From Deltaproteobacteria bacterium (GTDB lineage Bacteria; Desulfobacterota; Desulfobulbia; Desulfobulbales; BM004), in the NCBI GenBank assembly GCA_019312695.1, contig JAFDCT010000223.1, positions 1 to 13,895 of the forward strand: a stretch of 13,895 bases of DNA. Direction: 5' to 3'. Positions within the stretch are counted from its first letter, which is position 1. Each line of letters opens with the position of its first letter. The position numbers and the translations under genes were made by a program. The notes below the pieces were generated by a model that saw nothing but the letters and a program-made list of their open reading frames with translations, did not search any database and was not told the origin of the DNA. This document shows, one piece after another, positions 506 to 13,500 of this stretch.

Positions 506-552
506 CCCTCACCGTCAAACCCCGTAACTCACTGAGACAGAAAGGCAAAAAA

Positions 553-1485: not shown

Positions 1486-1543
1486 TGCCCGCGCCCGCAA
1501 TTGCCTCTGTGTAAAATTTAACCTCATTTCTGACTGCTATTAC

Positions 1544-1556: not shown

Positions 1557-1593
1557 TTTACAGATGCGGCCATTCTAGAGACTTTTTCCTCAT

Positions 1594-3060
1594 ATGAAAA
1601 AGAAAATTTACTTCGTCATGTTCCTTCTTATCCTCTGTTTTCTGGCGGGTGGATTATATATATCAAAATCGATACATGAGGTAACAGACAAACTCGAGAC
1701 CATCATCACCCTCAATAAAGTCGAATTTCTGCGGGAAACTTTGCTGAACAAAATGGTCGTGGTACAGGCTGACCTGCTTCTCAAGGATACTCCGCATGCC
1801 AGACAGGTTGACACCTTTGTCCAGCATGTGGAGGAAATGCAGCAGGCGGCAAATCAGTGTTCCAATTGTCATCACCAGGAAGAAGTGAAACAACGCATCA
1901 CCCATTTTCAGCAAATGATCGATCAATATACAAAAAAACTGAGCCGGATCTATACCCTGAGAGCAAATGCCGCAAGATTAAAAAAAGAGAAGCAGAGCGC
2001 CTTTGACCTTGGCCAGACAACGTTGGAGCTCGTCAACAAGATTGTCATAACATCGCAACACAAAACATCGCAAAGAATTCAGCAGGCCCGTTTTAACATT
2101 CACAATTCAGAGATGTTGCTTTATAGCCTCATGATCATCGGGCCGTTTATCATTATTTTTACAACGTATTATTTTCTCAGAAATTTCAGTGGATCTGTCC
2201 TGGCGCTCACCAATGCCACCAGTAAAATAAAAGAGGGCCACCTGTCCTTTCAGATAAAAAATAACCTGAAAGACGAATTTCGTGTACTGGCTGATTCTTT
2301 CAATGAAATGGCAGTTTCCATAACAGAGCATGAAAAGACAATCAAACAGGCTGAAAGGCTGGCTGCTGTTGGTGAGCTTGCCGCCGGGCTGGCGCATGAA
2401 ATAAAAAATCCCCTGGCAGGCATAAAGGTCTCCATTGAGGTGCTGAAAAACGACCTGGACCTTGAGCAGGAGGAGAAAGAAATCTTTTTAAGAGTCATCA
2501 ATGAGATTTACAGAATAGAGTCATTGCTTAAAAATCTGCTCAATTATGCCAGGCCGGCGAAACCCCAACTTGATTTTATCAATCTGCACGAAACCTTGGA
2601 CACAATGATTAAAGCCTCTGAAATGTCACTCAAAAGTCCCAGCAGCAAATCCGAATTGCTTAAGGATATTAAATTTGTTAAAGACTTTGATTCAGATATG
2701 CCGCTGATCTGTGTCGATGGGGGCCAGTTCAAACAGGTAGCCCTGAACCTTATATTAAACGGGATAGACGCCATAGCTGAAAAGGGAACAATAACCATAA
2801 AAACAGCGAGTTCTTCTAAGGATTCTATAGAGATAATGATATCCGACACGGGTAATGGTATTGACCAAAAGGACCTCAAGATGGTATTTAATCCATTCTT
2901 TACAAACAAAGCGAAAGGAACCGGCTTGGGCTTGGCAATCACTAAACGCCTGATCGAGCAGCATAAAGGTTCCATAGATGTCGTCAACAACCGGGAAGGC
3001 GGGGCAACCTTTATTATCACGTTGCCTGTAAAACAGGAAAACGGGTGGTGTAAAACATGA
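1594..3060 (+). CDS. Membrane sensor histidine kinase with periplasmic CxxCH heme motif
   Basis: A 488-residue kinase. Transmembrane segments lie at about 5-23 and 174-196, bounding a periplasmic domain of about 150 residues. That domain contains CSNCH at 89-93, the covalent c-type heme attachment motif, followed by a second His. A HAMP-like region spans about 197-250. The HisKA box has the phospho-accepting His268 in a HEIKNP context. The ATPase domain shows an N box around Asn385-Asn389, DTGNGI at 418-423, FNPFF from 432 and GTGLGLA at 442-448, so all catalytic boxes are intact. It is expected to sense redox state or a heme ligand, or the bound state of the lipoprotein upstream, and to phosphorylate the regulator that overlaps its stop codon. 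Start: the ATG gives a clean signal anchor (MKKK plus hydrophobic stretch), but there is no strong ribosome-binding site. Confidence 0.93.
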   Translation: MKKKIYFVMFLLILCFLAGGLYISKSIHEVTDKLETIITLNKVEFLRETLLNKMVVVQADLLLKDTPHARQVDTFVQHVEEMQQAANQCSNCHHQEEVKQRITHFQQMIDQYTKKLSRIYTLRANAARLKKEKQSAFDLGQTTLELVNKIVITSQHKTSQRIQQARFNIHNSEMLLYSLMIIGPFIIIFTTYYFLRNFSGSVLALTNATSKIKEGHLSFQIKNNLKDEFRVLADSFNEMAVSITEHEKTIKQAERLAAVGELAAGLAHEIKNPLAGIKVSIEVLKNDLDLEQEEKEIFLRVINEIYRIESLLKNLLNYARPAKPQLDFINLHETLDTMIKASEMSLKSPSSKSELLKDIKFVKDFDSDMPLICVDGGQFKQVALNLILNGIDAIAEKGTITIKTASSSKDSIEIMISDTGNGIDQKDLKMVFNPFFTNKAKGTGLGLAITKRLIEQHKGSIDVVNNREGGATFIITLPVKQENGWCKT

Positions 3061-4460
3061 AAATAAAAGGCAGGATTTTTCTTCTTGATGATGACGAACT
3101 CATCATTACCATGCTTGACAGGGCTCTCAAGAAAGAAGGATTTGAAACCCAGCTGCAGACAACCGGCCAGAATATTATCGAAAATATTGAAGAATGGCAC
3201 CCCGATCTTGTCATGCTGGATATTCACCTGGGTGAAGACAAGGACGGCCTTGATATCCTGCATGATATCAAGCAGAATGAAATTGATACACAGGTCGTGA
3301 TGCTGACGGGGGATGATACTGCTGAATCTGCAATAAAGGCCATGAAAATAGGGGCAGCAGATTACCTGACCAAGCCTTTTAATGTTGACGAAGTCATCAT
3401 GGTCATCAAAGGCATTCTGGAAAAAGCCAAACTCAGGGAAGAGGTAAAATATTTCAGAAAGTCACGTATGGATTTCACCCATGATGAAATGGTGGGCAAA
3501 TCCCCGGCCATAAAAGAAGTAATAGATAACGCAAAAAAAATAGCCACCGCCGGAGTCCCGACCATACTTATTACCGGTGAGTCCGGGACGGGCAAGGAAG
3601 TTCTGGCCCGCTATATCCATCACTGGATGCATCAGAAAGAAGAGGAGGAGGTTGAAAGTGTGCCGTTTATAGCAGTTAACTGTACGGCTCTGCCTGACAA
3701 CCTGATTGAGAGCGAACTTTTCGGCCATACCAAGTGGGCTTTTACCGATGCCAAAACAGATAAAAAAGGTATGTTTGAACTGGCCGACGGCGGCACCATT
3801 CTGCTTGATGAAATAGGCGACATGCGGGCCGATCTCCAGAGCAAATTTCTGCGGGTGCTTGAAAACAGAAAGATCCGCCGCCTAGGCGGCAAGGTCGATC
3901 TCCCTGTTGATGTGAGCGTTATCGCCACAACAAACAGGGACCTCAAACAGGCAGTATCCACCAAGGACTTCCGGGAGGACCTTTTTTTCCGTTTAACCTC
4001 CTTTGCACTCAATCTGCCGCCGCTGCGTGAAAGACATGAAGACATTGTCATGCTGGCCCGATACTTCCTGAATCAATTCTGTCTGAAATATGGTAAACCG
4101 GAGATCAAGGGTTTTACTCCCGAGGCTGAAAAATCACTGGCCGCTCATAAGTGGCCGGGAAATGTACGGGAGTTGAAAAATGTTGTGGAACGCTGTGTTG
4201 TCCTGGTAAGCAGCGATTTTATCGGGCCGGGACACCTGCCTCTGGAATTTAGCGAAGGACATGCTTTTCCGTTTGTCGAAAGACGCAAAGAAGCACGGAT
4301 CATCCTGCCTGAACAGGGTATTTCTCTGGAGGATGTGGAGAAGGATCTGATCAAGCAGGCTCTAGAAAAAACTGGCAGCAACCAGACCAAGGCGGCTAAA
4401 CTGCTGAATATATCCTACGACACCATGCGTTATCAGGTGAAGAAATTCGGCTTAATGTGA
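3057..4460 (+). CDS. NtrC-family sigma-54-dependent response regulator with altered GAFTGA loop
   Basis: A 467-residue regulator in three domains. The receiver (about 5-125) has the acidic cluster D11-D13, phospho-acceptor Asp55, Thr84 and Lys106. The AAA+ domain (about 145-375) has Walker A GESGTGKE at 174-181 and Walker B TILLDEIGD at 247-255. A Fis-type helix-turn-helix occupies about 425-467 (NQTKAAKLLNISYDTMRYQVKK). The loop that contacts sigma-54, normally GAFTGA, reads WAFTDA at 227-232; the key Phe and Thr remain. The first codon is TGG at 3735-3737, one base from GGG (Gly). The ATG overlaps the kinase stop by four bases, implying coupled translation and a cognate pair. Targets are unknown, and I found no convincing -24/-12 promoter in the window. 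Confidence 0.95.
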   Translation: MKIKGRIFLLDDDELIITMLDRALKKEGFETQLQTTGQNIIENIEEWHPDLVMLDIHLGEDKDGLDILHDIKQNEIDTQVVMLTGDDTAESAIKAMKIGAADYLTKPFNVDEVIMVIKGILEKAKLREEVKYFRKSRMDFTHDEMVGKSPAIKEVIDNAKKIATAGVPTILITGESGTGKEVLARYIHHWMHQKEEEEVESVPFIAVNCTALPDNLIESELFGHTKWAFTDAKTDKKGMFELADGGTILLDEIGDMRADLQSKFLRVLENRKIRRLGGKVDLPVDVSVIATTNRDLKQAVSTKDFREDLFFRLTSFALNLPPLRERHEDIVMLARYFLNQFCLKYGKPEIKGFTPEAEKSLAAHKWPGNVRELKNVVERCVVLVSSDFIGPGHLPLEFSEGHAFPFVERRKEARIILPEQGISLEDVEKDLIKQALEKTGSNQTKAAKLLNISYDTMRYQVKKFGLM

Positions 4461-4462
4461 GC

Positions 4463-4474
4463 TCAAACGTTTGA
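4463..4474. repeat. 12-bp perfect palindrome after the regulator gene
   Basis: TCAAACGTTTGA is fully self-complementary, three bases after the sigma-54 regulator stop and in the 62-base gap between convergent genes. A wider GCTCA/TGAGC pairing (4461-4465 and 4482-4486) surrounds it. There is no T-tract, so bidirectional termination is only a guess. Confidence 0.25.
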
Positions 4475-4522
4475 TATGAAGTGAGCAAACAGGATATACT
4501 ATATTATACCGGGTGTCTTAAA

Positions 4523-5215
4523 TCAGGCAAACCGGACCCCTACCCGACAATTTTCTTCATCGTCCATTTTACTCCAGACAACCACCCCGGTTCTGTTGTC
4601 AACTTTCTCATCAAAACCGATTACCTGCGATTCCTTCAAGGGGTAGTGGATCAGGAACCCTATACCGCTGTCGCTGATATCAACCGCCTGTGCCTCAAGT
4701 GTCTTACGGGTATAGTTTCCCTGGTCAATGATGCTCATCTGAAAAAATATGTTTTCCGTAAAAGGTGCTCTTGGTTTTTTTCTTGATTTTTTTTCAAAAC
4801 CATTGGCGGCAAACTGAAAATCGGTTTGAAAATTTTCTTTGCCTTTAAGGGCTTGCTGTACCACATCCGTGATATCGCACAGGTCAAACGGCTTGGAAAT
4901 AAAGTGGCTGGCTCCGTTGGCAATGGCCTTGTTATTATTTTCACTTAACTTGTCAGAGTCAAAATGGCTGGCAGTCATGATTACAACTCTGATTTCGGGG
5001 CACATATCCTTGGTAATTTTCATCAGCTCCAGGCCGTTCAGGTCAGGGAGATTAACATCGAGCAGACACAGGTCATATGGGCAAAAGGAGAGTTTTTCAA
5101 TTGCCTGTGCCGCCGTACTTGCAGTTACAACCTCATAGCCATCATTTCTCAGAATTTTTTCCAGGGCATATAATATGAGTTGGTCATCATCAACTACAAG
5201 GATATAGTGTTTCAC
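4523..5215 (-). CDS. Response regulator receiver with C-terminal PilZ (c-di-GMP-binding) domain
   Basis: A 230-residue cytoplasmic protein. The receiver (about 3-122) has the acidic cluster D9-D11, phospho-acceptor Asp53 in LLDVNLP, Thr81 and Lys108. A linker follows, then a PilZ domain (about 145-230) with RKKPR at 145-149 (RxxxR) and DISDSG at 179-184 (D/NxSxxG), the two motifs that bind cyclic di-GMP. The protein should therefore join phosphorelay input to c-di-GMP binding, acting through protein contacts because no DNA-binding or enzymatic domain is present. It converges on the kinase/regulator cassette and has its own promoter region, so a shared kinase is possible but not shown. The start is GTG at 5213-5215, preceded by GAGG (5221-5224 on the other strand) with a 5-base gap. 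Confidence 0.9.
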   Translation of the reverse strand: MKHYILVVDDDQLILYALEKILRNDGYEVVTASTAAQAIEKLSFCPYDLCLLDVNLPDLNGLELMKITKDMCPEIRVVIMTASHFDSDKLSENNNKAIANGASHFISKPFDLCDITDVVQQALKGKENFQTDFQFAANGFEKKSRKKPRAPFTENIFFQMSIIDQGNYTRKTLEAQAVDISDSGIGFLIHYPLKESQVIGFDEKVDNRTGVVVWSKMDDEENCRVGVRFA

Positions 5216-5220
5216 TTTTA

Positions 5221-5224
5221 CCTC
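5221..5224 (-). promoter_or_regulatory. Ribosome-binding site fixing the GTG start of the receiver-PilZ gene
   Basis: On the minus strand GAGG lies five bases before the GTG codon at 5215. This supports GTG as the genuine initiator; there is no in-frame ATG nearby upstream. Confidence 0.6.
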
Positions 5225-5256
5225 GAGAACAAAAGTCTATTTAAATCAAACAAAAT

Positions 5257-5270
5257 GTTAAAATTTTAAC
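5257..5270. promoter_or_regulatory. 14-bp perfect palindrome upstream of the receiver-PilZ gene
   Basis: GTTAAAATTTTAAC is completely self-complementary and lies 41 bases before the GTG start, in a promoter-like position for the minus-strand gene. It could be an operator, but AT-rich palindromes also arise by chance. Confidence 0.3.
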
Positions 5271-5375
5271 GGATAGACATACTTAACTCATATTGAATAG
5301 CAAAAACCAGACCATGATAGCTTTTAAGAAGATTTATTTATGAAAATCTCTTTGATAACAAGATGATAGAGGTAG

Positions 5376-5415
5376 CCGACTGAAATTGTCGGTCAGGGAT
5401 AATACAATCCTGACC
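5376..5415. repeat. Two overlapping stem-loops in the 5.2-6.0 kb gap
   Basis: CCGAC (5376-5380) pairs with GTCGG (5388-5392), and GGTCAGG (5391-5397) pairs with CCTGACC (5409-5415). The two stems share two bases, so they are alternatives. They lie upstream of the receiver-PilZ gene and may be leader structure. I do not recognise a riboswitch class. Confidence 0.3.
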
Positions 5416-5495
5416 CGGAAATTGATAAAATAAACAGGAATTTTACCGAATGACTTGTGGTTATTTTGCTAAAATTTTTTTTTTACTTAATCTAA

Positions 5496-5801
5496 CAATG
5501 CAATCGACGTGCCAGCCCCTGTGGATTTAAAGGGCCGCCTATCCGTGAAATCTTTGCGGGCCTGAAAAAAAGGCGGAAAGTTAAGATAATTGCCTGTGGG
5601 CAGAAGCATTCAGCTGGTTCCCGGTTTGGCCAAATGACCAAAAAAATTACCAACCTCAACGGGTTTTTACCCTACTCGAAATTTTTTGCGCCGCCCGAAC
5701 TACATTATATAGAAGTAGGTTTATCCAACCCATCAGGCCTGGGTATTCAGCTTGCCTCTGTAATAAAGAAACCCTTTACAAGGAAGACTTTGTTCGATTA
5801 A
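5496..5801 (+). other. Unrecognised 101-codon stop-free stretch, possible gene remnant
   Basis: The frame is open for 101 codons from 5496 and closes with TAA at 5799-5801. The only ATG in it is at 5634, which would give a 55-residue basic peptide (MTKKITNLNG...). There is no Shine-Dalgarno sequence in front of that ATG. The upstream half of the frame is rich in Lys, Arg and Gly and has no start codon I would trust. I recognise no family. It may be the tail of a decayed gene or chance. Around it, the rest of the 766-base gap between the receiver-PilZ gene and the next gene shows only the small repeats listed separately. Confidence 0.2.
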
Positions 5802-5901
5802 AGTTACATATGACAGAGTAAACAGACTCATGCAAAACCATACTCAAGCACAATATAAAAAATAACTTTGGGGATGGCTTAAAAGGTTTTTCTCAAAGGA
5901 C

Positions 5902-5952
5902 AAGCCTCTGCAGGCAAATCTGGAATTGGCCTTCTTCTTGCCTCAGGGGCTT
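5902..5952 (+). promoter_or_regulatory. Long imperfect hairpin just before the small gene and mpl
   Basis: The arm at 5902-5917 (AAGCCTCTGCAGGCAA) pairs with 5938-5952 (TTGCCTCAGGGGCTT) with one bulged C and one G-T pair, around a 20-base loop. A pyrimidine-rich run, TTTTCTTCTC from 5951, overlaps its base. It lies 29 bases before the preferred start of the small gene. It could be an attenuator or terminator-like leader structure. Confidence 0.4.
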
Positions 5953-5981
5953 TTCTTCTCATTCTCCACATGGAAAAAATT

Positions 5982-6179
5982 ATGACTGCCGCAAAACAGA
6001 AAAGCAAAGCTGAAAACAGTGTTGACCAGGCTGCCCGCCCGGTCAGTGATGAGGCTATTCTCAAAGTGGCCAAAGAGGTTGTTGTTAAGTTCATCGAGGT
6101 TGGCCGTCTGTCACCGGCAAACTTTGATGAAACCTTTCAAAGTATTTATAAAACTGTGCAAGACGCTGTACGCTCCTAA
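5982..6179 (+). CDS. Small conserved-looking protein of unknown function upstream of mpl
   Basis: A soluble protein of 65 residues with no signal or membrane segment. The N-terminal 20 or so residues are Lys/Ala/Ser-rich and probably disordered. The rest (ILKVAKEVVVKFIEVGRLSP and onward) reads as two amphipathic helices joined by a GRLSPANF turn. I recall similar short proteins in deltaproteobacteria but cannot name a family. I chose the ATG at 5982 because GGA at 5972-5974 lies seven bases before it. The ATG at 5970, which would add MEKI, has no Shine-Dalgarno sequence. The gene ends 18 bases before mpl, in the same frame, so the two are probably co-transcribed. Its coding look (strong Val/Ala/Ile helix pattern) makes it a likely real gene. 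Confidence 0.65.
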   Translation: MTAAKQKSKAENSVDQAARPVSDEAILKVAKEVVVKFIEVGRLSPANFDETFQSIYKTVQDAVRS

Positions 6180-6197
6180 CCTTTTTCCAGTTTATCG

Positions 6198-7631
6198 GTG
6201 AATCTTCTATCTGCCCTCAATCGCTTCCCTCATCAGGTACGCCATATTCATATCATGGGTATCTGCGGCACCGGCATGGGTTCCCTGGCCGGCATGCTGA
6301 AGGATTCCGGTTATACTGTCACCGGCTCCGATGAAAACATCTATCCTCCCATGAGCGACTTTCTGGCTGCCTGCAATATAGAGATAAAAAACGGTTATGC
6401 CGCTGAGAATCTTGCTCCCCGGCCCGACCTGGTTGTGGTGGGGAATACCATACGCAAAACAAATCCTGAAGCCCTGGCCCTGGCGGAGCTTAACCTCCAT
6501 TATGTCTCTTTTCCCCAAGCCCTGGGCCATTACTTTCTTACCGGTAAGACTTCACTTGTGGTAACGGGCACCCACGGCAAGACCACCACCTCATCCCTCC
6601 TGGCCACACTGCTGCACAAGGCCAACCTGACACCGGGATTCATGGTGGGCGGCCTAGTACAGGCCTTCGGCCGCAATTACAACCTTGGCAGCAGTCCCTA
6701 TTTTGTCGTGGAAGGGGATGAATACGACACCGCCTTTTTTGACAAGGGGCCGAAATTCTTGCACTACCAGCCCCATACTGCCATTGTCACCTCAATCGAA
6801 TTTGATCATGCCGATATATTTGCAGACCTTGAGGCTATCAAGGACGCCTTTGCCCGCCTGATGGCCATCATGCCGGAAGACGGCTGTGTTGTTGCCTGCT
6901 TTGACAGCCCGGTGGTCAAGGATATAACTGCCAGAGCAGCATGCAGGGTTATTGGTTACGGCCTGGATCAGGAATCGGAGTGGACCATCAGGAATCTTAA
7001 TGTAAAACCGGAGGGCACCTTTTTTGATGTTGTACATAAAGGCGAGTTCTACAGCTCATGCAAAAGCCCGATGCCGGGACGTCATAACGCCTTGAATGGA
7101 TTGGCGGTCATTGCGGTTCTCGATCGTCTCGGTCTGGCCAAAGAAGATATTGTGGCCGGGCTTTCCGGTTTTGAAGGGGTTCGCAGACGCCAGGAAGTCC
7201 GGGGCGTGGTAAACGATATCACGGTTATCGATGATTTTGCCCACCATCCCACCGCAGTCCGGGAAACCCTGGCTGCTTTGAGGCAGGCCTATGACGGCCA
7301 GAGGCTGGTGGCTGTTTTTGAACCGCGCACCAACTCCAGCAGACGCCGGATCTTCCAGCAGGATTATGTCTCATCTTTCGACCGGGCAGACCTGGTACTT
7401 GTGCGGGAACCGGTCCCCCTCAAGGATTTTCCAACAGATCAGCTCTTTTCTTCACAACAGCTTGCTTCTGATCTCAGAGCCCGAAACATTGATGCGCTTT
7501 CATTTTCCGACACCGACACTATTTTGGCCCACTTGCAGGATACACTGCGGCCAGGTGATGTGGTGGCCATCCTTTCCAACGGCGGTTTTGATAATATACA
7601 CATGCGGCTGCTGGAAATATTGGGTAAATGA
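6198..7631 (+). CDS. mpl: UDP-N-acetylmuramate:L-alanyl-gamma-D-glutamyl-meso-DAP ligase
   Basis: This 477-residue Mur-ligase family enzyme joins the recycled murein tripeptide L-Ala-gamma-D-Glu-meso-DAP to UDP-MurNAc in the cytoplasm, returning wall fragments to peptidoglycan synthesis. The N-terminal Rossmann-like domain begins HIHIMGICGTGMGSLAG (17-33), the form typical of Mpl rather than MurC. The ATP-binding P-loop is GTHGKTTT at 124-131. EGDEYD (172-177) and EFDHAD (201-206) are the Mpl-specific metal/substrate motifs. PMPGRHNALN, DDFAHHPTAV and EPRTNSSRRR follow in the central and C-terminal domains. The length is usual for the family. The start is GTG at 6198-6200 without a clear ribosome-binding site. 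The only room upstream is seven codons to an in-frame stop, so translation may be coupled to the small gene. Confidence 0.95.
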   Translation: MNLLSALNRFPHQVRHIHIMGICGTGMGSLAGMLKDSGYTVTGSDENIYPPMSDFLAACNIEIKNGYAAENLAPRPDLVVVGNTIRKTNPEALALAELNLHYVSFPQALGHYFLTGKTSLVVTGTHGKTTTSSLLATLLHKANLTPGFMVGGLVQAFGRNYNLGSSPYFVVEGDEYDTAFFDKGPKFLHYQPHTAIVTSIEFDHADIFADLEAIKDAFARLMAIMPEDGCVVACFDSPVVKDITARAACRVIGYGLDQESEWTIRNLNVKPEGTFFDVVHKGEFYSSCKSPMPGRHNALNGLAVIAVLDRLGLAKEDIVAGLSGFEGVRRRQEVRGVVNDITVIDDFAHHPTAVRETLAALRQAYDGQRLVAVFEPRTNSSRRRIFQQDYVSSFDRADLVLVREPVPLKDFPTDQLFSSQQLASDLRARNIDALSFSDTDTILAHLQDTLRPGDVVAILSNGGFDNIHMRLLEILGK

Positions 7632-7634
7632 GAA

Positions 7635-7676
7635 GGACTGAGGGATAAGGGAGGAGGGAAGAGAGAAAATATGAGG
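7635..7676 (+). repeat. Heptamer array A (GGACTGA type), mpl-rfbB spacer
   Basis: Six period-7 units beginning GGACTGA, GGGATAA, with later units drifting (GGGAGGA, GGGAAGA). They fill nearly all of the 46-base gap between the convergent stop codons of mpl and rfbB. No terminator hairpin is present there. Confidence 0.75.
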
Positions 7677-7677
7677 C

Positions 7678-8820
7678 TCAGGAATAGTTCCGGGCCAGCC
7701 ACTCCCGGTAATCCTCCCCCATGACATTTTCGCACCAGTCCATATTTTTCAGGTACCAGGCAACAGTTTTCCGCAAACCTGATGCAAAGGACTCAACCGG
7801 TTCATATCCAAGTTCCTGCCTTATTTTGGAGGCATCAATGGCATACCGCCGGTCATGGCCCGGACGGTCCTTGACATGCGTGACTAGAGAAGAGTATGGC
7901 TGCGTCTTCGGGACTGAGGGCTGAGGATTGAGTTCATCCAGAATTGCGCACAAGGTGTTTACCACTTCCAGGTTCGTTTTTTCGCAGTTCCCGCCGATAT
8001 TATACGTTTCTCCTAATCTGCCTTTTTTTAGGATCAGGTCAATTCCCCGGCAGTGGTCTTCAACATAAAGCCAGTCCCTGATATTGAGGCCGTCGCCATA
8101 AATGGGCAGCTGCTTGCCGGCAAGACAATTGAGAATGAGCAGGGGAATCAGTTTTTCCGGGTGCTGATAGGGCCCGTAATTGTTTGAGCAGTTGCTGATG
8201 GTCATGGGCAGCCCGTAGGTCTTGTAATAGGCCCTGACCAGAAAGTCCGAACCCGCCTTGCTGGCAGCATAGGGTGAATTCGGGGCATAGGGTGTTGTCT
8301 CGGAGAAACCTGGGTCGTCCTGCCCCAGGGAGCCGTAAACTTCATCGGTTGAAATATGGTGAAAACGAAATTTCGAGGACCAGGGACCGGGGACTGATGA
8401 CTGAGTGTCCAGCCAAACTTTCTTGGCAGCCTTGAGCAGGGTATGGGTGCCTGTGACATTCGTATCCACAAAGGCATCCGGCCCGTGGATGGAGCGGTCA
8501 ACATGCGATTCTGCCGCAAAGTGCACTATGGTATCTATCTCCTGATCCTGCAGGAGGTTCTGTACAAGGTCATAATCCCTGATATCCCCATGCACGAAAA
8601 GAAAGCCGGTATGACTTTTAATGAGTTCAAGATTACCCCTGTTGCCCGCATAGGTCAGGGCATCAAGCACTACCACTCGGTCTTCCGGATAGTTTTTAAT
8701 CCAGTAGTGAACGAAGTTTGCACCGATAAACCCGGCACCGCCAGTTATAAGGAGTGAAGAGTGACGGGGGAGCATTGAGGACTGAGAACTGTTTTGTTCG
8801 GACTCTATTGTTTGAGACAT
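7678..8820 (-). CDS. rfbB: dTDP-glucose 4,6-dehydratase with three repeat-encoded insertions
   Basis: This enzyme converts dTDP-glucose to dTDP-4-keto-6-deoxyglucose, the second step to dTDP-L-rhamnose. It is an extended SDR with GGAGFIG (27-33) for NAD, the catalytic T158-D159-E160 in ISTDEVYG, and YAASK with Tyr184 and Lys188. RDWLYVEDH and DRPGHDRRYAID are diagnostic for RfbB. It has 380 residues where the family usually has about 340-355. The excess lies in three Ser/Pro/Gln-rich segments, at residues 7-22, 139-149 and 299-311, each coinciding with a GGACTGA-type heptamer array in the DNA (arrays D, C and B). All three are at the N-terminus or in loops, and active-site motifs are intact, so the enzyme is probably functional. 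I chose the ATG at 8820 because GGAGGTG (8826-8832) precedes it ideally; a TTG at 8844 would place that site inside the gene. Confidence 0.95.
   Translation of the reverse strand: MSQTIESEQNSSQSSMLPRHSSLLITGGAGFIGANFVHYWIKNYPEDRVVVLDALTYAGNRGNLELIKSHTGFLFVHGDIRDYDLVQNLLQDQEIDTIVHFAAESHVDRSIHGPDAFVDTNVTGTHTLLKAAKKVWLDTQSSVPGPWSSKFRFHHISTDEVYGSLGQDDPGFSETTPYAPNSPYAASKAGSDFLVRAYYKTYGLPMTISNCSNNYGPYQHPEKLIPLLILNCLAGKQLPIYGDGLNIRDWLYVEDHCRGIDLILKKGRLGETYNIGGNCEKTNLEVVNTLCAILDELNPQPSVPKTQPYSSLVTHVKDRPGHDRRYAIDASKIRQELGYEPVESFASGLRKTVAWYLKNMDWCENVMGEDYREWLARNYS
7897..7931 (+). repeat. Heptamer array B inside rfbB
   Basis: Three clear units, GGACTGA, GGGCTGA and GGATTGA (7911-7931), are preceded in phase by weaker ones from 7897. 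The array encodes, on the minus strand, most of the extra loop at RfbB residues 299-311, just before the conserved DRPGHDRRYAID motif. Confidence 0.75.
8377..8404 (+). repeat. Heptamer array C inside rfbB
   Basis: Four units in phase: GGACCAG, GGACCGG, GGACTGA, TGACTGA. On the minus strand they encode RfbB residues 139-148 (TQSSVPGPWS), an insertion between a helix and the FRFHHISTDEVYG strand. Confidence 0.75.
8751..8792 (+). repeat. Heptamer array D inside the rfbB N-terminus
   Basis: Six units of 7 bases, including GGAGTGA, AGAGTGA, GCATTGA and GGACTGA. They encode the N-terminal extension of RfbB (about residues 10-23) that precedes the Rossmann strand LLITGGAGFIG. Confidence 0.8.
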
Positions 8821-8825
8821 CAGAA

Positions 8826-8832
8826 CACCTCC
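8826..8832 (-). promoter_or_regulatory. rfbB: Strong ribosome-binding site for rfbB
   Basis: On the minus strand GGAGGTG is followed by five bases and then the ATG at 8820. This is the strongest Shine-Dalgarno sequence seen in the window and sets the rfbB start at 8820 rather than the in-frame TTG at 8844. Confidence 0.8.
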
Positions 8833-8843
8833 ATCTGGAAACA

Positions 8844-8920
8844 AGACTGAGATGTCATGAGGAAGGACTCAGGTATGGGGGCTGAGGGATGAATGCTTAA
8901 GTAAAAGGGCTGAGAAATCA
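8844..8920 (+). repeat. Heptamer array E, 11 units between IVP remnant and rfbB
   Basis: This is the longest array: eleven consecutive 7-base units in one phase. Near-consensus units are AGACTGA (8844-8850), GGACTCA (8865-8871), GGGCTGA (8879-8885), GGGATGA (8886-8892) and GGGCTGA (8907-8913); others are degenerate. The last unit contains the stop codon of the IVP-family reading frame, and the array runs to just before the rfbB ribosome-binding site. Confidence 0.8.
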
Positions 8921-9296
8921 TTTTTTTTCTTCCTTGTGCTTTTTAACTGTGGAACGCAACCCACCGATTATTTGAGAAATTTCCATAGTGAGTACTTTTA
9001 ATGAAACAAACTTTTCATTTGATATATAGCCGATATCGTATGAACAGTAAGTTGCGGACTGACTTCTGCACATGAACCTTTGGCAATGACCAGTGCTGAT
9101 GAAATTCAGCTCTACCAGCCCGATCAAACCCTTTAGCAATGTTTGACATGGTTGAAACAGAGGCACGTTGAATCTGGCTTTTAAGACCAAAATTTTTTTC
9201 GAATTTACTCCACGTCATTATATCATAAATTTTCTTAGTAAGTTCTCTTGCATTTTGCCAAGCTATGAGATCTTCAAATTTAGTAATCTTTTTCAT
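8918..9296 (-). pseudogene. Four-helix-bundle protein (23S rRNA intervening-sequence protein family), two frameshifts
   Basis: The N-terminal part (KFEDLIAWQNARELTKKIYD, QIQRASVSTMSNIAKGFDR) is the hallmark of the four-helix-bundle/IVP family. The frame then breaks twice. After GRAEFHQ the family-like text continues in the next frame as LVIAKGSCAEV...QL (break near 9093-9096). It then moves to a third frame as YCSYDIGYISNEKF to the end (break near 9048-9049). Each break is explained by loss of one base; repaired, the protein would be about 126 residues, normal for the family. The products of the separate frames should not fold. IVP-family proteins are small dimer/pentamer-forming helical bundles of unclear function, often found away from rRNA. 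Here the gene is a cassette between rfbD and rfbB, with heptamer arrays of opposite orientation on its two sides. Sequencing error could mimic the lesions. Confidence 0.85.
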
Positions 9297-9344
9297 GAGT
9301 TCTCATAAACTTATGTCTTAAGCCTCATCACAGGCGTCAAGTTT

Positions 9345-9365
9345 TTAAACCTCAGTCCTCAGTCC
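9345..9365 (-). repeat. Heptamer array F at the rfbD 3' end
   Basis: Two perfect GGACTGA units on the minus strand (9359-9365 and 9352-9358) plus a degenerate third unit. They form the last codons of rfbD and continue toward the IVP remnant, with weaker in-phase units traceable to about 9298. Relative to array E the orientation is reversed, so the IVP remnant lies between opposed arrays. Confidence 0.7.
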
Positions 9366-10232
9366 TTTTTTCAACTCACCCAGCATTTTCCTGAGTGACG
9401 TCCGCCAGTGTTCGGCTGCGTAACCCAAAATCTGCCAGGTTGCAGTCTTATCAAGAACACTGTAAGCGGGGCGCCTTGCAGGAGTGTGATAATCGGAGGT
9501 TCGAATCGGCTTGATCGGAATAGCTTTTTCCAGCATTCCCAGCTGGAGTGCCTCTTCCTGGATTGCCACGGCAAAATCATACCAGCTGGCAACGCCGGCA
9601 TCTGTCCAGTGATAGATGCCCGGGACATTTGCCATGTCTGCCAGATAATAAATTGCCCTGGCCAAATCTCTGGTCCAGGTAGGGGTGCCTACCTGGTCTG
9701 CAACAACGCCGATCTCATCCCTTTCTGCCATGAGTTTCAGCATGGTCTTGACAAAATTGCTGCCATGGCAAGAATAAAGCCATCCTGTACGCAGGACGAG
9801 GGCCGTGTTCATGGTTTCGGCCAATACTTTCTTTTCCCCCTGCAGCTTGCTGGCCCCGTATACGCTGAGTGGATTCGGGCTGTCATGCGGCAGATAGGGC
9901 TGCGACTTAGAGCCGTCAAAAACAAAATCCGTTGAAATATGAATGAAGCGGGCCTGGTAATCTGCTGCAGCTCCGGCAATATTTGCCGCCCCGTCCGTAT
10001 TCACAGCAAAGGCTTTTTCTTTTTCCTTTTCAGCTTTATCAACCGCAGTATAGGCTGCAGCATTGATCACCAGAGCAGGCCGGTGTTGCTGAACAGCTGC
10101 CGTGACTGCGCCACTGTCAGTGATATCGAGCTCCGCCCGGCCGAGCGCGATCAGCTGCCATCCCTCCGGTCTGGCTCGCTGCAGTTCCCAGCCGAGCTGG
10201 CCGTTTGCGCCTGTAATTAATGCTTTCATCAT
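9345..10232 (-). CDS. rfbD: dTDP-4-dehydrorhamnose reductase
   Basis: This 295-residue SDR enzyme catalyses the last step of dTDP-L-rhamnose synthesis, reducing dTDP-4-dehydrorhamnose with NAD(P)H. Visible are the nucleotide-binding GANGQLG (8-14), NAAAYTAVDKAE (57-68), the STDFVFDG segment from 100, YGASK with Tyr125 and Lys129, and RTGWLYS. The length and motif order are normal. The final six residues (GLRTEV) are read from two tandem GGACTGA heptamers, so the natural C-terminus appears to have been rewritten by the repeat. Two Met codons stand in tandem at 10232 and 10229; neither has a good ribosome-binding site. The gene follows rfbC by 95 bases that hold opposed heptamer arrays. Confidence 0.94.
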   Translation of the reverse strand: MMKALITGANGQLGWELQRARPEGWQLIALGRAELDITDSGAVTAAVQQHRPALVINAAAYTAVDKAEKEKEKAFAVNTDGAANIAGAAADYQARFIHISTDFVFDGSKSQPYLPHDSPNPLSVYGASKLQGEKKVLAETMNTALVLRTGWLYSCHGSNFVKTMLKLMAERDEIGVVADQVGTPTWTRDLARAIYYLADMANVPGIYHWTDAGVASWYDFAVAIQEEALQLGMLEKAIPIKPIRTSDYHTPARRPAYSVLDKTATWQILGYAAEHWRTSLRKMLGELKKGLRTEV

Positions 10233-10242
10233 TATTAATGGA

Positions 10243-10270
10243 GGACTATGAGTTAAAGACTGAAGACTGC
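10243..10270 (+). repeat. Heptamer array G, rfbC-rfbD spacer
   Basis: Four in-phase units: GGACTAT, GAGTTAA, AGACTGA, AGACTGC. The array starts 11 bases upstream of the rfbD start codon and faces array H. Confidence 0.65.
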
Positions 10271-10287
10271 GTATTTCTTAAAAAAAT

Positions 10288-10322
10288 CTTTTACTTAACC
10301 CTAAGTCCTGAACCCGCAGTCC
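10288..10322 (-). repeat. Heptamer array H, opposed to array G
   Basis: Five in-phase units on the minus strand from GGACTGC (10322-10316) through GGGTTCA, GGACTTA and GGGTTAA to AGTAAAA. It is opposite in orientation to array G across a 17-base AT-rich spacer. GACTGCG (10265-10271) and CGCAGTC (10315-10321) can pair, so a transcript through both arrays could fold into a hairpin. Confidence 0.7.
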
Positions 10323-10327
10323 TGTTT

Positions 10328-10873
10328 CTAATAACATTCCGCATCCTTAAACAAAGCGGCTGCCTCATCCTTGGGAGCAAGGATTGGGGGTTTACCCTCA
10401 ACAAGAGGCCAGTTGATGCCCAGGCCAGGGTCATCCCAGCGGATTGCCCTTTCATATTCAGGGGCGTAAAAATCAGTGCATTTGTAAAAGAAGTCAGCCT
10501 GCGGGCTGGTGACATAGAAGCCATGGGCAAACCCCGGAGGCACCCACAGCATCTTTTTGTTCTCCCCGCTGAGATGTATGCCGACCCACTGTCCGAAGGT
10601 GGCGGATTTTTTGCGCAGGTCAACAACAACATCAAAGACCTCGCCGCTCAACACCCGTACCAGCTTGCCCTGGGGTTTTGTCACCTGGTAGTGCAGCCCC
10701 CGCAGTATGCCCTGGGCCGAACGGCTGTGGTTGTCCTGGACAAAATCCGCTTCTATGCCGCCGGCGGCAAACTTTTCAGCATGCCAGGTTTCCATGAAAA
10801 AACCGCGGTTATCACCAAATACCTCCGGTTCGATCACTATGACATCAGCTATTTTTGTCGGGATAAATTTCAT
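10328..10873 (-). CDS. rfbC: dTDP-4-dehydrorhamnose 3,5-epimerase
   Basis: This 181-residue cupin-fold enzyme epimerises C3 and C5 of dTDP-4-keto-6-deoxyglucose, the third step to dTDP-L-rhamnose. Conserved RmlC features are visible: FGDNRGFFMETW (19-30), FVQDNHSRS (44-52), LRGLHYQ with the catalytic His61, and GEVFDVVVDLR. They are followed by WVPPGFAHGFYV (110-121), the active-site Tyr130 in FFYKCTDFY, and Asp169 as likely partner of His61. Length is normal. It lies 74 bases after rfbA; that spacer is AT-rich and is one of the few in the locus without heptamers. No strong ribosome-binding site precedes the ATG. Confidence 0.96.
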   Translation of the reverse strand: MKFIPTKIADVIVIEPEVFGDNRGFFMETWHAEKFAAGGIEADFVQDNHSRSAQGILRGLHYQVTKPQGKLVRVLSGEVFDVVVDLRKKSATFGQWVGIHLSGENKKMLWVPPGFAHGFYVTSPQADFFYKCTDFYAPEYERAIRWDDPGLGINWPLVEGKPPILAPKDEAAALFKDAECY

Positions 10874-10947
10874 TTTTTTTCATCAAAAGTCAGATAACTG
10901 GAAGGTCTTATAGTATTAAATTTAAAATTCTAAATTTTGATTCTTAT

Positions 10948-11826
10948 TCACTTCCACTTCTCGGCCTCGATAAGGAGCAGAAGGTACTGACCGTAATTGT
11001 TTTTCGCCAGCGGCTCGGCAATTTGCCTTACCTGTTCCACGGTTATATAACCCAACCGGTAGGCGATCTCTTCCAGGCAGGCGATCTTAAGGCCCTGGCG
11101 GTCTTCCACCACCTTGATAAAGTTAGCCGCATCAAGCAGGGATTCGTGGGTGCCGGTATCAAGCCAGGCCGCACCGCGGCCTATGAGTTCAACATGCAGA
11201 TCCCCCCTCTCCAGGTAGGCCTTGTTGACATCCGTTATTTCCAGTTCACCCCGGGGTGAGGGTTTGATCGTTTTGGCGATCTGCACCACATCGTTGTCAT
11301 AGAAATAGAGGCCCGTTACTGCATAATTCGATTTGGGCACTGCCGGTTTTTCCTCAATGTCAAGCACCTTGCCGCTCTCATCAAAACTTATGACACCGTA
11401 GCGCTCAGGACTCCTGACATAGTAGCCGAATATTGTTGCTCCCTTTGCTCTTTTAGAGGCATCCTGGATCTGCTCGGGCAGGCCATGCCCGAAAAAAATA
11501 TTATCTCCCAGGATCAGACATACCAGGTCGGAACCTATAAAGGTTTCGCCGATGATAAAGGCCTGGGCCAGCCCCTTTGGTTCATGCTGGATAGCATATT
11601 GCAGGGAAATGCCCCACTGGGAGCCGTCATTCAGCAATCTTTTAAACTGGTCCCGGTCTTCCGGCGTGGTAATGATCAGAATATCCTTTATGCCGGCCAG
11701 CATGAGTACAGCAATGGGATAGTAGATCATGGGCTTGTCGTACACCGGCATGAGCTGCTTGCTCACCGAACGCGTGATTGGATAGAGTCTGGTGCCGGAG
11801 CCACCGGCCAGTATGATGCCTTTCAT
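10948..11826 (-). CDS. rfbA: Glucose-1-phosphate thymidylyltransferase
   Basis: A 292-residue nucleotidyltransferase that makes dTDP-glucose from dTTP and glucose-1-phosphate, the committed and usually feedback-regulated step. The N-terminal signature GGSGTRLYP (8-16) with Lys23 binds the nucleotide, LGDNIFFG holds the metal-binding Asp108, and IEEKP and [11 protein letters not shown] are the sugar-phosphate site. [13 protein letters not shown] and the [15 protein letters not shown] segment are characteristic of RfbA. Length is normal and no repeat insertion is present. It is the first of the four rhamnose genes on the minus strand. Its 216-base upstream gap to the previous gene contains promoter-like and inverted-repeat sequences, so the rfbACDB set may have its own promoter. 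Confidence 0.97.
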
Positions 11827-11877
11827 TGGTTTTCCCGTTGCTGAGTAATATTATATATCCCAATACATTTAATAACT

Positions 11878-11937
11878 ATTATAAACGAGCTGCACAGCTA
11901 GCTAACAAACCATAGTTATCCTAGTTGATTAAACTAG
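11878..11937 (-). promoter_or_regulatory. Candidate promoter and operator-like repeats upstream of rfbA
   Basis: On the minus strand a perfect TATAAT (-10) lies at 11883-11878, about 52 bases before the rfbA start. The best -35 candidate, TTGTTA at 11908-11903, is 19 bases away, longer than ideal. Between them is AGCTG-CA-CAGCT (11888-11899), an inverted repeat, and upstream is CTAGTT-gatta-AACTAG (11921-11937), another. Such a layout could bind a regulator, but none is identified. Confidence 0.4.
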
Positions 11938-11949
11938 AGTTTTTACTTC

Positions 11950-11985
11950 TTACCCGGTTTTTGCGACGATGGCAATAGCGGGTAA
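11950..11985. repeat. Nested inverted repeat downstream of the two-CW gene
   Basis: TTACCCG (11950-11956) pairs with CGGGTAA (11979-11985), with a smaller TTGC/GCAA pairing inside. It lies 57 bases past the two-CW/epimerase stop. It could stop minus-strand transcription before rfbA, but no T-run follows on that strand. Confidence 0.35.
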
Positions 11986-12013
11986 TGACTGAGGTGTGAG
12001 GGCTGAGAAAAAG
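11986..12013 (+). repeat. Heptamer array I, downstream of the two-CW gene
   Basis: Four units: TGACTGA, GGTGTGA, GGGCTGA, GAAAAAG. This is the right-most member of the family in the window and lies 29 bases after the end of the two-CW/epimerase gene. Confidence 0.65.
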
Positions 12014-12042
12014 AGTAATAATTTGACGGTTATCCCCGCGCA

Positions 12043-13500
12043 TCAAAGGGATGCCTCATACTCCTCCAGGGGCTTATGGCTGTATTTGTTCATGGTATCT
12101 AGGAGAACATCCGGGGCCTCCAGAAACTCTCCGGCAGGCTGCGAAGTTCCACGCAGATCCTCATTAAAGGTCGTAATGAGATTGAAGTGCTTCCAGCGGA
12201 TGAGATAATAGTAAATGATACTGGTCAACTCTGTAAAAACGGTTATCTCAGGCTCATTATCCCTGTAGCTTGACCGTTCCAGTTTGCCGACGGACAGCGT
12301 CTGAATTTCATAAAAACTCTTCATGAACTGCATTTCCGCCGGCAGCCTGATCTCAACTCCTAGGCGGCCAAGCCGCTTAATCAGCCACTTGAGGAAACCC
12401 CGGCCTGTTTTGGCTAAAGGGTACGGGACATAGATCTCCCGCGGTGCCTTGACATCAAGGTAGGACTTAATGGCCTTGATGATCGCCACCAGTTCCACGG
12501 GCTCTCTATCAACAAAATTATAGGTCTGCCCGGAGAACTCATCCCGTTTCTCAAGTATATAGTTTACAAACGCGGGGATCTTCTTGGTATTGGTATAGGA
12601 ATGAAATACGCCCGGCTTGCTGAGCATGAACGGCATGGCCTGATCGGCAATGGAAAAAAGCAGCCGCTGGAATCCCTGGATCTTGTGGTCATGCTTGCCG
12701 TAAACCACAGCCAGCCGGATGATGGTATAGTCAAGCCCCTGGGTCTCATGCATGTATTCCAGGGTTTTTTCCGCCATCAGTTTTGATTTAGCATAATTGG
12801 ACAGCCTGGGGTTGAGTTCCAGGCGATCTTCCTCAGTAAGGTTTTCACCCATGGGCAATACTGCGGCAGAGCTAAAATGGATATAGGGAATTTTCTGCTG
12901 CATGGCCATTTTGGCCAGTCTTACAGCCCCGAGGTAATTAATTTCGTAGGCAAGCTGGGCATCACTGTCCAATGGGGCTATGGCACAGTTGACAATAAAA
13001 TCGGGCTGGTATTTTTCAAAATAACTTCTTATATCCCTGGGCTGGCGCAGACTCAGCCTTTTACTGTTGGGGCCGAGAACCTCTATGTCGCCTACCTTGT
13101 TGCTGAAATAATGCATCAGGGCCCCGCCTATAAGGCCTGAACTACCGATGATAATGCCAAGTCTCTTGGTTGTGATGTCTAGCCGGGAGGATGTATCCTT
13201 GAGCCGGGTGAGCAGCTTGTTATTGCTCTCCAGGGCTTTGCCCTCTTCATTATGGACCTTGTTGTAGAAGTCGCAGCGCCTGCAGGCCACCTGCTTACGG
13301 GCAAACGAGCCCTGCACGGTGCCGCCGCAGAAGGTGCCGGCCACAACCCAGCAGGCCCTGCCTGAATTTATGCCGCCATGGACCGTGTCCAATCTTTTTT
13401 CGCTGGCAGCGGGGCAGACGCCCAATTGTTTGGTCTTGGCGCCTTTCGGACCCCGGCCGCACTTCATGAATTCCCAGCAGTTGAGCTTTTTCTCAGTCAT
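12043..13500 (-). CDS. Two-CW cysteine domain fused to an NAD-dependent epimerase/reductase-like protein
   Basis: A 485-residue protein of two parts. Residues 1-80 hold seven Cys (8, 14, 29, 50, 58, 73, 76) in the pattern NCWEFMKCG...CP...HGGINSGRACWVVAGTFCGG...CRRCDFY. This is the 'two-CW' motif I know from deltaproteobacterial signalling proteins, likely a metal- or redox-binding module. A short helical linker leads to an extended SDR domain from about 114. It has GSSGLIGG (119-126) for NAD(P), IHFSSAAV with Ser210-Ser211, and YAKSK with Tyr236 and Lys240, so the catalytic residues are complete. It resembles RfbD-type reductases in outline, but the substrate cannot be told. The C-terminal 100 residues or so are unassigned. 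No signal peptide is seen. Its place upstream of rfbACDB suggests a sugar-nucleotide or glycan role. The start ATG has only a weak AAGG nearby. Confidence 0.85.
   Translation of the reverse strand: MTEKKLNCWEFMKCGRGPKGAKTKQLGVCPAASEKRLDTVHGGINSGRACWVVAGTFCGGTVQGSFARKQVACRRCDFYNKVHNEEGKALESNNKLLTRLKDTSSRLDITTKRLGIIIGSSGLIGGALMHYFSNKVGDIEVLGPNSKRLSLRQPRDIRSYFEKYQPDFIVNCAIAPLDSDAQLAYEINYLGAVRLAKMAMQQKIPYIHFSSAAVLPMGENLTEEDRLELNPRLSNYAKSKLMAEKTLEYMHETQGLDYTIIRLAVVYGKHDHKIQGFQRLLFSIADQAMPFMLSKPGVFHSYTNTKKIPAFVNYILEKRDEFSGQTYNFVDREPVELVAIIKAIKSYLDVKAPREIYVPYPLAKTGRGFLKWLIKRLGRLGVEIRLPAEMQFMKSFYEIQTLSVGKLERSSYRDNEPEITVFTELTSIIYYYLIRWKHFNLITTFNEDLRGTSQPAGEFLEAPDVLLDTMNKYSHKPLEEYEASL

Follow-up and report, generated by a model that had tools for sequence, protein, structure and literature searches.

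Degenerate heptamer arrays of a bacterial rfb locus as probable termini and remnants of a very small transposable element that carries an IVP gene

The window, i.e. the whole stretch of 13,895 nucleotides analyzed here (contig JAFDCT010000223.1 of assembly GCA_019312695.1, a Deltaproteobacteria bacterium of the Desulfobulbales), carries an rfb locus in which tandem repeats of the heptamer GGACTGA lie between as well as within genes (Table 1). An ungapped, phased scan with the consensus GGACTGA, in which segments were kept at a score of at least 10, detected 8 segments, all beyond base 7600 and none in bases 1-7600, whereas 40 dinucleotide shuffles of the window yielded 0.3 segments on average and 2 at most. 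The existence of the family, its 7-base phase, the drift of its units and its clustering, all of which had been described in the first-pass annotation, are thereby confirmed, also against a shuffled-sequence control. The nine arrays of up to eleven units counted there were not recovered, as the longest of the 8 segments comprises 42 bp, i.e. six units; Tandem Repeats Finder at a minimum score of 30 reported only two period-7 arrays in the window. Four segments are intergenic, three are located inside rfbB and the remaining one reaches into the end of rfbD, in agreement with the earlier observation that the arrays also enter coding sequence. CRISPR arrays have unique spacers, while the GGACTGA units follow each other head to tail without spacers, which rules out CRISPR identity, as had been stated before; likewise, a dispersed and degenerate heptamer family is not a plain microsatellite. 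The region 10228-10335, which includes the inverted array pair in the rfbC-rfbD spacer, folds with -27.7 kcal/mol (z -2.97), and no Rfam match at E 0.1 was obtained for 7600-12100.

Table 1. Heptamer arrays and the IVP gene in the window.
Feature	Position	Strand	Score or basis
Short GGACTGA array, mpl-rfbB spacer	7634..7643	+	score 10
Array inside rfbB, read through in frame	7911..7932	+	score 17; array at corresponding place in G004
Array inside rfbB, read through in frame	8375..8405	+	score 16; array at corresponding place in G004
Array encoding N-terminal extension of RfbB	8750..8791	+	score 17; alignment with RfbB of G004 and G011
Degenerate arrays downstream of IVP gene, inverted relative to 9350-9366	8864..8917	+	score 11.5; only 8864-8887 passes array threshold, remainder read by eye
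IVP gene, frameshifted	8921..9296	-	Pfam; two-frame match to intact G001 protein
GGACTGA array upstream of IVP gene (gene strand), 3' end of rfbD	9350..9366	-	score 17; Tandem Repeats Finder, 100% matches
Inverted array pair without IVP, rfbC-rfbD spacer (hairpin)	10240..10323		fold and scan; only right arm 10300-10323 (-) passes array threshold; missing from G006
Solo array upstream of rfbA	11987..12007	+	score 13.5

Between rfbD and rfbB lies a gene of family PF05635, "23S rRNA intervening sequence protein" (IVP), which forms a four-helix bundle. The first-pass annotation had used IVP only as a marker of spacers and had missed its place at the center of the arrangement. ORF 9015-9296 matches PF05635 at 6.7e-18, and the intact IVP protein of genome G001 matches the gene across two frames: 9021-9296 encodes residues 1-92, and a different frame, at 8924-9064, supplies residues 79-125, the outer end of the gene being assumed to include the stop. 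PF05635 is the sole Pfam match of this gene and of two relatives, without any transposase family. To our knowledge, no function has been assigned to PF05635 proteins, and we know of no catalytic motif in IVP. IVP structures have been solved (2gsc, 2rld), and in a Foldseek search with an IVP model the Avd structures of diversity-generating retroelements (4dwl, E 0.015, TM about 0.8; 8ub7) ranked next after two IVP structures. IVP is under purifying selection, with dN/dS values of 0.03-0.15 in 17 of 17 pairs, some of which have a member in common.

Pairs of units were counted across the own genome. Pairs with at most one mismatch numbered 3, all of them in this contig, versus 0 in the reversed control, while with two mismatches allowed 9 pairs were counted genome-wide, 7 of them in this contig, versus 13 in the control. 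In G006, which belongs to the same genus, rfbC and rfbD are four bases apart and rfbD and rfbB touch or overlap, with no array at either junction; the comparison of relatives for presence and absence, as suggested in the first-pass annotation, thus supports that annotation. GGACTGA arrays also occur in the genus on stretches without an IVP match, those assemblies being fragmented, and the second IVP gene of the own genome (L337), located at a contig edge, has no array in the 4 kb analyzed. Fifty-six of 78 solo arrays have no partner within 250 bp (14 have an inverted and 7 a direct partner; 1 is a tie), and the majority of the dispersed arrays thus do not form paired miniature elements. Among 18 ORFs beside solo arrays in genus and family, 15 have Pfam matches; the ORFs include two Mur ligases, GMP synthase, an integrase, NAD kinase, NtrC-type regulators, an MscS-type channel and one sugar epimerase-type protein. 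Solo arrays adjoin a Mur ligase gene also in G004 and G006, comparable to the array in the mpl-rfbB spacer of the window. The location of arrays in operon spacers, where they are likely transcribed, would suit a role as binding sites of a post-transcriptional regulator, as put forward for the TAACTGA repeats of Beggiatoaceae, for which translational control has been proposed (MacGregor 2015). We regard this as extremely unlikely, because the corresponding junctions of G006 and the empty plasmids described below have no arrays, the unit at the same spacer differs between G004 and G001, and the arrays adjoin unrelated genes.

To place these observations in a wider frame, IVP genes were collected across bacteria: 126 PF05635 matches were found in 39 of 58 genomes, of which 30 were taken as loci, and 60 more rows were added, mostly from hand-picked multi-copy genomes. 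From a scan of GTDB contigs the best 80 of 587 IVP matches were used, and this sample therefore favors relatives of the query. The total of 171 IVP rows in 168 loci, including the window, contains some duplicates or near-duplicates (L041/L208; L045/L121). The arrays flank the IVP genes tightly: in 126 of the 171 rows a tandem array was present within 250-300 bp, with a period of seven in 82 cases, eight in 33, nine in 8, ten in 2 and six in 1, and 45 rows, among them the IVP gene of the window (score 10), have no assignable period. Applied to controls, the same procedure assigned a period at 0 of 30 ribosomal S8 loci, at 2 of 30 RmlD loci and at 5 of 760 blind positions (2 of 380 in IVP-free genomes; 3 of 380 at a distance from IVP in genomes that contain it). 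Counts of period-7 arrays with a score of at least 13 were 32 at IVP loci (17 of 30 with arrays), 14 at RmlD loci (6 of 30) and 0 at the 30 S8 loci; for five of the six RmlD loci the contig also carries an IVP gene. The tie to a surface-polysaccharide locus, as originally suggested for the arrays, is hence replaced by a link to the IVP gene; association with polysaccharide genes is ruled out by the RmlD control loci and by the varied neighbors of solo arrays. In the 80 GTDB loci (best 80 of 587), period-7 arrays reached a density of 9.57 per 10 kb up to 300 bp from IVP and of 0.80-1.26 at larger distances, and period-8 arrays one of 4.25 versus 0-0.11. On both sides of IVP the arrays are mostly inverted relative to each other (78 of 87 at two-sided clean loci; 8 direct, 1 tie), which places the IVP gene in the loop of a long hairpin that could form between them.

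Arrays of period 7 or 8 were lacking from 400 kb of sequence of IVP-free genomes, where four of period 9 and one of period 10 were found, and 400 kb taken from IVP-bearing genomes outside the vicinity of IVP contained one period-7 and three period-8 arrays, as compared to 32 and 13, respectively, in 91 kb of IVP loci. Together with the blind positions, these counts rule out a genome-wide background of period-7 arrays. The scarcity of arrays away from IVP also argues against plain slippage repeats of the STRR or simple-sequence type, i.e. arrays made anywhere by polymerase slippage, with IVP merely nearby. This idea draws on a report that heptamers rank as the most frequent class among long simple repeats in most of the genomes studied (Mrazek 2007, cited in PMC4679880) and on a left array whose length in two near-identical plasmids differs by exactly 14 bp, the second plasmid being likewise filled. 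However, it accounts neither for the inversion nor for the way in which the arrays covary with the protein, nor for the target duplication. As the origin of the arrays, slippage is strongly disfavored and in our estimate very improbable, but it may still adjust their copy number.

Array unit and period track the IVP subfamily more than the host. For this comparison 120 of the 126 assigned rows were kept, four with internal stops and two short ones being dropped. The nearest IVP in another genome has the same period in 92 of 120 cases, whereas 200 shuffles gave a mean of 60.3 and a maximum of 78, and a tree of 113 IVP proteins of at least 90 residues with period 7, 8 or 9 required 16 period changes versus at least 28 in 200 shuffles. 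Between genomes, units of the same period had a similarity of 0.90 where protein identity was at least 0.8 (14 pairs) and of 0.56-0.60 where it was below 0.6; the value within single genomes was 0.58 at identities below 0.4. These same-genome pairs of identity below 0.4 (59 pairs) have the period in common in 39% of cases and their units are at background similarity, ruling out a host-specific unit. AGGAGTC and AAACGCTG exemplify the units of two subfamilies. Several pairs with a protein identity of at least 0.8 also have flanks in common, and like units in these pairs therefore reflect common descent of the locus, not transposition. Similar elements in otherwise non-collinear flanks were observed as well (L192/L211; L039/L204/L217), and in Flavobacterium and kin junctions occur in empty, array-only and array-plus-IVP states.

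Filled and empty sites could be compared on cyanobacterial plasmids, 31 records of which carry IVP. Ten were used in a first test (two pairs near-identical), later joined by H57 and H9 and by L322, L327 and L336, which are filled relatives; of the six listed empty relatives of L293, three were compared. One complete element of this kind is that of a Trichormus/Nostoc plasmid. All of the first ten IVP genes have an adjoining heptamer array, which is two-sided in nine cases, eight of them inverted and one (L298) direct, while only a weak period-8 array (score 11) was detected at L369 (H9). Gene and arrays are present or absent as an insert of 423 bp, the annotated unit containing one CDS; array pairs without IVP exist, too. 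At site 1, where filled and empty plasmids are ~97% identical, the 5-bp sequence GTAAT is duplicated exactly, and the insert including the duplication measures 428 bp. The duplication is exact in three of the six filled-empty combinations and spoiled by one polymorphic base in the other three. Site 3 shows an imperfect target duplication, TTCTA, and at the remaining five of the seven sites (2, 4, 5, 6 and 7) divergence or rearrangement precludes a clean one. By coordinates, 273 bases stay unaligned at the cas6-cas4 site of the Dolichospermum UHCC 0315A plasmid.

Terminal inverted arrays and a 5-bp duplication are also what one would expect of a trans-mobilized element, and a 423-bp unit devoid of a known transposase as well as pairs without IVP fit a MITE-like passenger, on whose termini an unrelated IS transposase acts in trans. 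IVP would then be cargo, e.g. an RNA-binding protein that softens insertion into operons. The likeness to MITEs and small insertion sequences in terms of a short unit, inverted ends and a 5-bp target duplication (one clean site) is countered by ends that are tandem arrays, by a unit that tracks the encoded protein and by a single ORF without a transposase-family match. As units and periods differ among IVP subfamilies in step with the protein, a single IS would not recognize all arrays; moreover, IVP is under purifying selection. We consider the passenger hypothesis unlikely.

Thus, the arrays probably represent the terminal repeats and the remains of a transposable element of very small size, designated IVP element, which we conclude to be a minimal transposable element without a recognized transposase. 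A full element would comprise about 420 bp with one PF05635 gene and, on each side, an array of 7-10-base units, usually in inverted orientation. It appears to insert with a 5-bp target duplication, between genes in the cases seen, and would leave behind IVP-less copies and single arrays that drift. According to this explanation, the window harbors one element with a frameshifted IVP gene between rfbD and rfbB, an IVP-less pair between rfbC and rfbD, and single arrays elsewhere. IVP may be the mobility factor of the element itself, perhaps acting, like its fold relative Avd, as an assembly that binds nucleic acid and recognizes the cognate repeat. Such an assembly would recruit a host polymerase or nuclease, and the array could grow through copying of its own unit.

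The Avd-like fold, also remarked as homology in PMC10053308, raises the question of copying through RNA: IVP might act like Avd, with a reverse transcriptase in trans, the array representing repeated copies of a short template and the gene-in-hairpin layout serving as RNA intermediate. Reverse transcriptase (PF00078) matches were obtained in seven of nine genomes searched but not in G000 and G001 (88% and 72% complete), both of which contain IVP and arrays; this leaves the own genome without a match, unlike the systems in which Avd occurs. The 5-bp duplication fits DNA integration as well, and in our judgment copying through RNA has very little probability.

In bacteria, tandem heptamers have been known for decades, and there is no agreement on how they spread. 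The cyanobacterial ones, known as STRR1, resemble the arrays of the window in being tandem, degenerate, dispersed and mostly intergenic (4 of 8 segments in the window). According to work by Elhai in 2008, Nostoc also contains small dispersed repeats that reportedly measure 21-27 bp, are mobile and occur near tandem heptamers; they are not known to include an IVP component. In the 23S rRNA intervening sequences of the Leptospira/Coxiella type, a PF05635 ORF likewise lies in the loop of a stem formed by inverted ends, but these reside inside 23S rRNA, whereas the IVP elements described here lie between protein genes and have stems made of tandem arrays. G-rich heptamers, i.e. GGGGA(C/T)T of Nostoc and GGGAATC of Xanthomonas, are treated as quadruplex-forming simple repeats in PMC4692102, the main text of which contains neither '23S' nor 'four helix'. 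The first-pass annotation had set the window apart from STRR in motif and setting. Its unit is indeed not identical to the published Nostoc unit GGGGACT, yet the rotation GAGGACT differs by only one base, and with respect to setting, the IVP genes on ten cyanobacterial plasmids have adjoining heptamer arrays as well. TAACTGA direct repeats occur in Beggiatoaceae, Cyanobacteria and Bacteroidetes and share with GGACTGA the heptamer length, the ACTGA core, intergenic location, patchy distribution across phyla and suspected transfer, for which the author found no mechanism (PMC4679880), proposing translational regulation instead; 'intervening', 'four helix' and '23S' are absent from its main text. 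In the open-access literature we found no link between IVP and repeats, partly among the matches listed, and among the matches listed no title on GGACTGA repeats.

With somewhat less than even probability, PF05635 proteins could be the factors that mobilize a new class of transposable elements and build their arrays. Each subfamily would then recognize its own 7-10-base unit, amplify it into inverted terminal arrays and insert with a 5-bp duplication, and the STRR and TAACTGA repeats would be debris of such elements. If repeats and PF05635 form one system, the spread of the repeats and the function of the protein become testable together, including the assignment of each repeat to the protein that makes or moves it, the reason why periods range from 7 to 10 and the way in which a 420-bp unit without a known transposase inserts with a duplication. 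The name IVP occurs in PMC10053308, PMC5787105, PMC10910872 and PMC11637426, and a figure legend in PMC10910872 lists it among proteins associated with CRISPR adaptation modules. Given one such system, this naming could be explained by IVP elements beside cas genes: elements of IVP type were observed between cas6 and cas4 or between cas10 and cmr3.

An ungapped phased scan of the window detected eight GGACTGA segments with a score of at least 10, all within one interval of the rfb locus (see table) and none in positions 1–7600, bearing out the clustering described in the first-pass annotation. Shuffled sequence gave fewer such segments (mean 0.3, maximum 2, in 40 dinucleotide shuffles). The longest segment comprised six units, so that the claimed arrays of up to eleven units were not recovered; Tandem Repeats Finder, which requires less degenerate copies than the phased scan, reported two period-7 arrays. 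Within the same genome, pairs of GGACTGA units with at most one mismatch occurred in the window contig only (3 vs. 0 for the reversed pattern), and pairs with two mismatches showed no genome-wide excess over the control (9 vs. 13). Arrays within rfbB are read through without stops and the corresponding positions are occupied in the genus relative G004, whose RfbB is 79% identical to that of the window. The rfbC-rfbD spacer forms a hairpin in RNA folding (z -2.97).

The genes around the arrays encode a Mur ligase (annotated earlier as mpl), RfbB, a 23S rRNA intervening sequence protein (IVP, PF05635, of four-helix bundle type), RfbD, RfbC and RfbA. The IVP gene of the window is frameshifted, the intact protein of the genus relative G001 matching it in two frames, and PF05635 genes and GGACTGA arrays are found on common contigs in several relatives. 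A second IVP fragment of the same genome lies at a contig edge, with no arrays in the 4 kb read.

Coordinates of features in the window and in other records
Feature	Record	Position
GGACTGA segments, score at least 10	window	7634-12007
IVP gene, match in two frames to the G001 protein	window	9021-9296 and 8924-9064
Protein with N-terminal two-CW domain (NF045718) and SDR/epimerase-like domain	window	12043-13500
Second IVP fragment	G000:C283 (genome of the window)	3-164
Different IVP subfamilies and units in the same rfbD-rfbB spacer, two species of the genus	L229; L230	1338-1670; 4474-4851
Array pair apparently nested inside another	L297	680-1020
Membrane-protein-like ORF apparently between two arrays	L165 (Flavobacterium record)	2860-4300

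Lag autocorrelation was used to scan loci centred on IVP genes for tandem repeats of whatever period, leaving the unit free. In 30 loci with up to 1.5 kb per side, 32 period-7 arrays (17 loci) and 13 period-8 arrays (7 loci) were detected, while periods 5, 6 and 9–13 gave 0–2 arrays each; counts for period 14 take in multiples of 7. No period-7 arrays were present in 30 ribosomal S8 loci, and 30 RmlD loci of the same genome set yielded 14 in six loci, five of them on contigs that also carry an IVP gene. At 80 further GTDB loci, densities within 300 bp of IVP were 9.57 (period 7) and 4.25 (period 8) per 10 kb vs. 0.80–1.26 and 0–0.11 farther away. Twenty 20-kb stretches of IVP-free genomes contained no arrays of period 7 or 8 (four of period 9, two each of periods 6 and 12, one of period 10), and twenty such stretches of IVP-bearing genomes away from IVP contained one period-7 and three period-8 arrays. 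When periods were assigned from the flanks (250 bp upstream and 300 bp downstream of the Pfam or tblastn match), 126 of 171 IVP rows received one (82 seven, 33 eight, 8 nine, 2 ten, 1 six), including records labelled Bacteroidota, Acidobacteria, Planctomycetes, Clostridia, Treponema, Proteobacteria and Brucella; the 45 rows left without a period include the degenerate copy of the window, and the one archaeal record had none assigned. The same procedure assigned periods at 0/30 S8 loci and 2/30 RmlD loci and, at blind positions, 2/380 times in genomes lacking IVP and 3/380 times in genomes carrying it, away from the gene.

Arrays flanked the gene on both sides in 87 of 120 clean IVP rows and, read towards the gene, were inverted in 78, direct in eight and tied in one, with a mean unit similarity between the two sides of 0.85 in the inverted vs. 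0.51 in the direct sense. The nine exceptions include L028, with the unit AAAAGCC; the plasmid locus L298 is similar. The period was common to a row and its most similar IVP in another genome in 92/120 cases (200 shuffles: mean 60.3, maximum 78), and a 113-leaf tree required 16 period changes vs. at least 28 in 200 shuffles. Between genomes, unit similarity in same-period pairs rose from 0.56–0.60 at protein identities below 0.6 to 0.90 at identities of at least 0.8 (14 pairs). Dissimilar IVP copies within one genome carry different units (similarity 0.58), 39% of 59 pairs having the period in common. Many similar IVP pairs occupy one ancestral locus; others are collinear over the element alone. 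For instance, L192 and L211 have 92% of IVP residues in common and similar units, and collinearity of their DNA is confined to positions -56 to +78 relative to the match, with two short non-collinear matches outside. A change of period can be a one-base change of the unit, as in L204 (AAACGCTG, period 8) and L195 (AAACGGTTC, period 9), whose flanked proteins are 79% identical.

Insertion was examined in cyanobacterial plasmids. In the ten IVP loci fetched first, out of 31 records, a heptamer array always adjoined IVP, on both sides in nine and inverted in eight of these. For the Trichormus variabilis locus L293, six close relatives (97.3–97.8%) lack IVP, of which three were fetched. Three of six filled-empty comparisons, two with L293 and one with the filled plasmid L322, were base-exact: the target GTAAT is single in empty plasmids and flanks the insert at both ends in filled ones, the insert comprising 428 bp including the duplication and the element 423 bp. 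The remaining three comparisons are not exact, owing to a single polymorphic base downstream. The Scytonema plasmid insert is 14 bp (two heptamers) shorter, and in the Nostoc plasmid L323 the insertion site appears to retain a decayed remnant. At a second locus, compared with L330, TTCTA flanks the L297 insert on both sides and TTCTA and TTCTG flank that of L336, a duplication judged by eye and with an imperfect right flank. Five further sites (L291, L295, L328, L369, L289) were too diverged or rearranged for such a reading. At one conserved junction in four GTDB records (two Flavobacterium, one Flavobacteriales, one labelled Limnohabitans; arrays judged by eye), two are empty, one has an array only and one has array and IVP. 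In the genus relative G006, the rfbC-rfbD gap measures four bases and rfbD and rfbB touch or overlap; at these tight junctions the window holds an inverted array pair and the IVP element. In G004, an IVP from a different subfamily, 36% identical to the G001 protein, occupies the rfbD-rfbB spacer together with AGGAGTG-type arrays.

The arrays and IVP are best accounted for as a minimal transposable element bounded by tandem arrays as terminal repeats, the arrays being cognate to the small protein that the element encodes. That the unit is mobile is supported by the covariation and by two insertion sites, one exact and the other imperfect; from linkage, covariation and selection we infer a role of IVP in this mobility. 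dN/dS of IVP was 0.03–0.15 in 17/17 pairs, which were picked for high similarity and in part have a member in common. One IVP model (pLDDT 95.8) matched the solved IVP structures 2gsc and 2rld and next Avd of diversity-generating retroelements (4dwl, E 0.015); the resemblance of IVP to Avd is noted in the literature (PMC10053308). Reverse transcriptase was not found in the incomplete genomes G000 and G001, and was present in 7/9 genomes searched. In RNA folding of the Trichormus element, the arrays form a stem with the gene in the loop (z -3.27). Heptamer repeats have been described previously (PMC4692102, PMC4679880), and among the papers listed in open-access searches none was seen to join IVP to tandem repeats.

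Arrays lying over 500 bp from an IVP gene numbered 78; 56 of them had no partner within 250 bp, and the partners of the others were inverted in 14 cases, direct in seven and tied in one. Therefore, arrays can be paired without IVP, but the majority of the dispersed ones stand alone; these may be half-deleted elements or may reflect a separate mode of spread. By eye, one IVP-less pair is apparently nested inside another (L297, L329, L330, L331, L336), and of the related plasmids one has the outer pair only and two have neither. The ORF in L165 lies beside an IVP element and is possibly cargo of a composite element.

IVP elements were also observed within CRISPR operons (L289, L298, L369), and IVP appears in a figure legend on CRISPR-adaptation associations (PMC10910872). 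The cas10-cmr3 interval holds one in Picosynechococcus (type III-B), the related plasmid pAQ6 of PCC 7002 having no IVP there, and the cas6-cas4 interval holds one in plasmid systems of Anabaena (type I-D) and Pseudanabaena.
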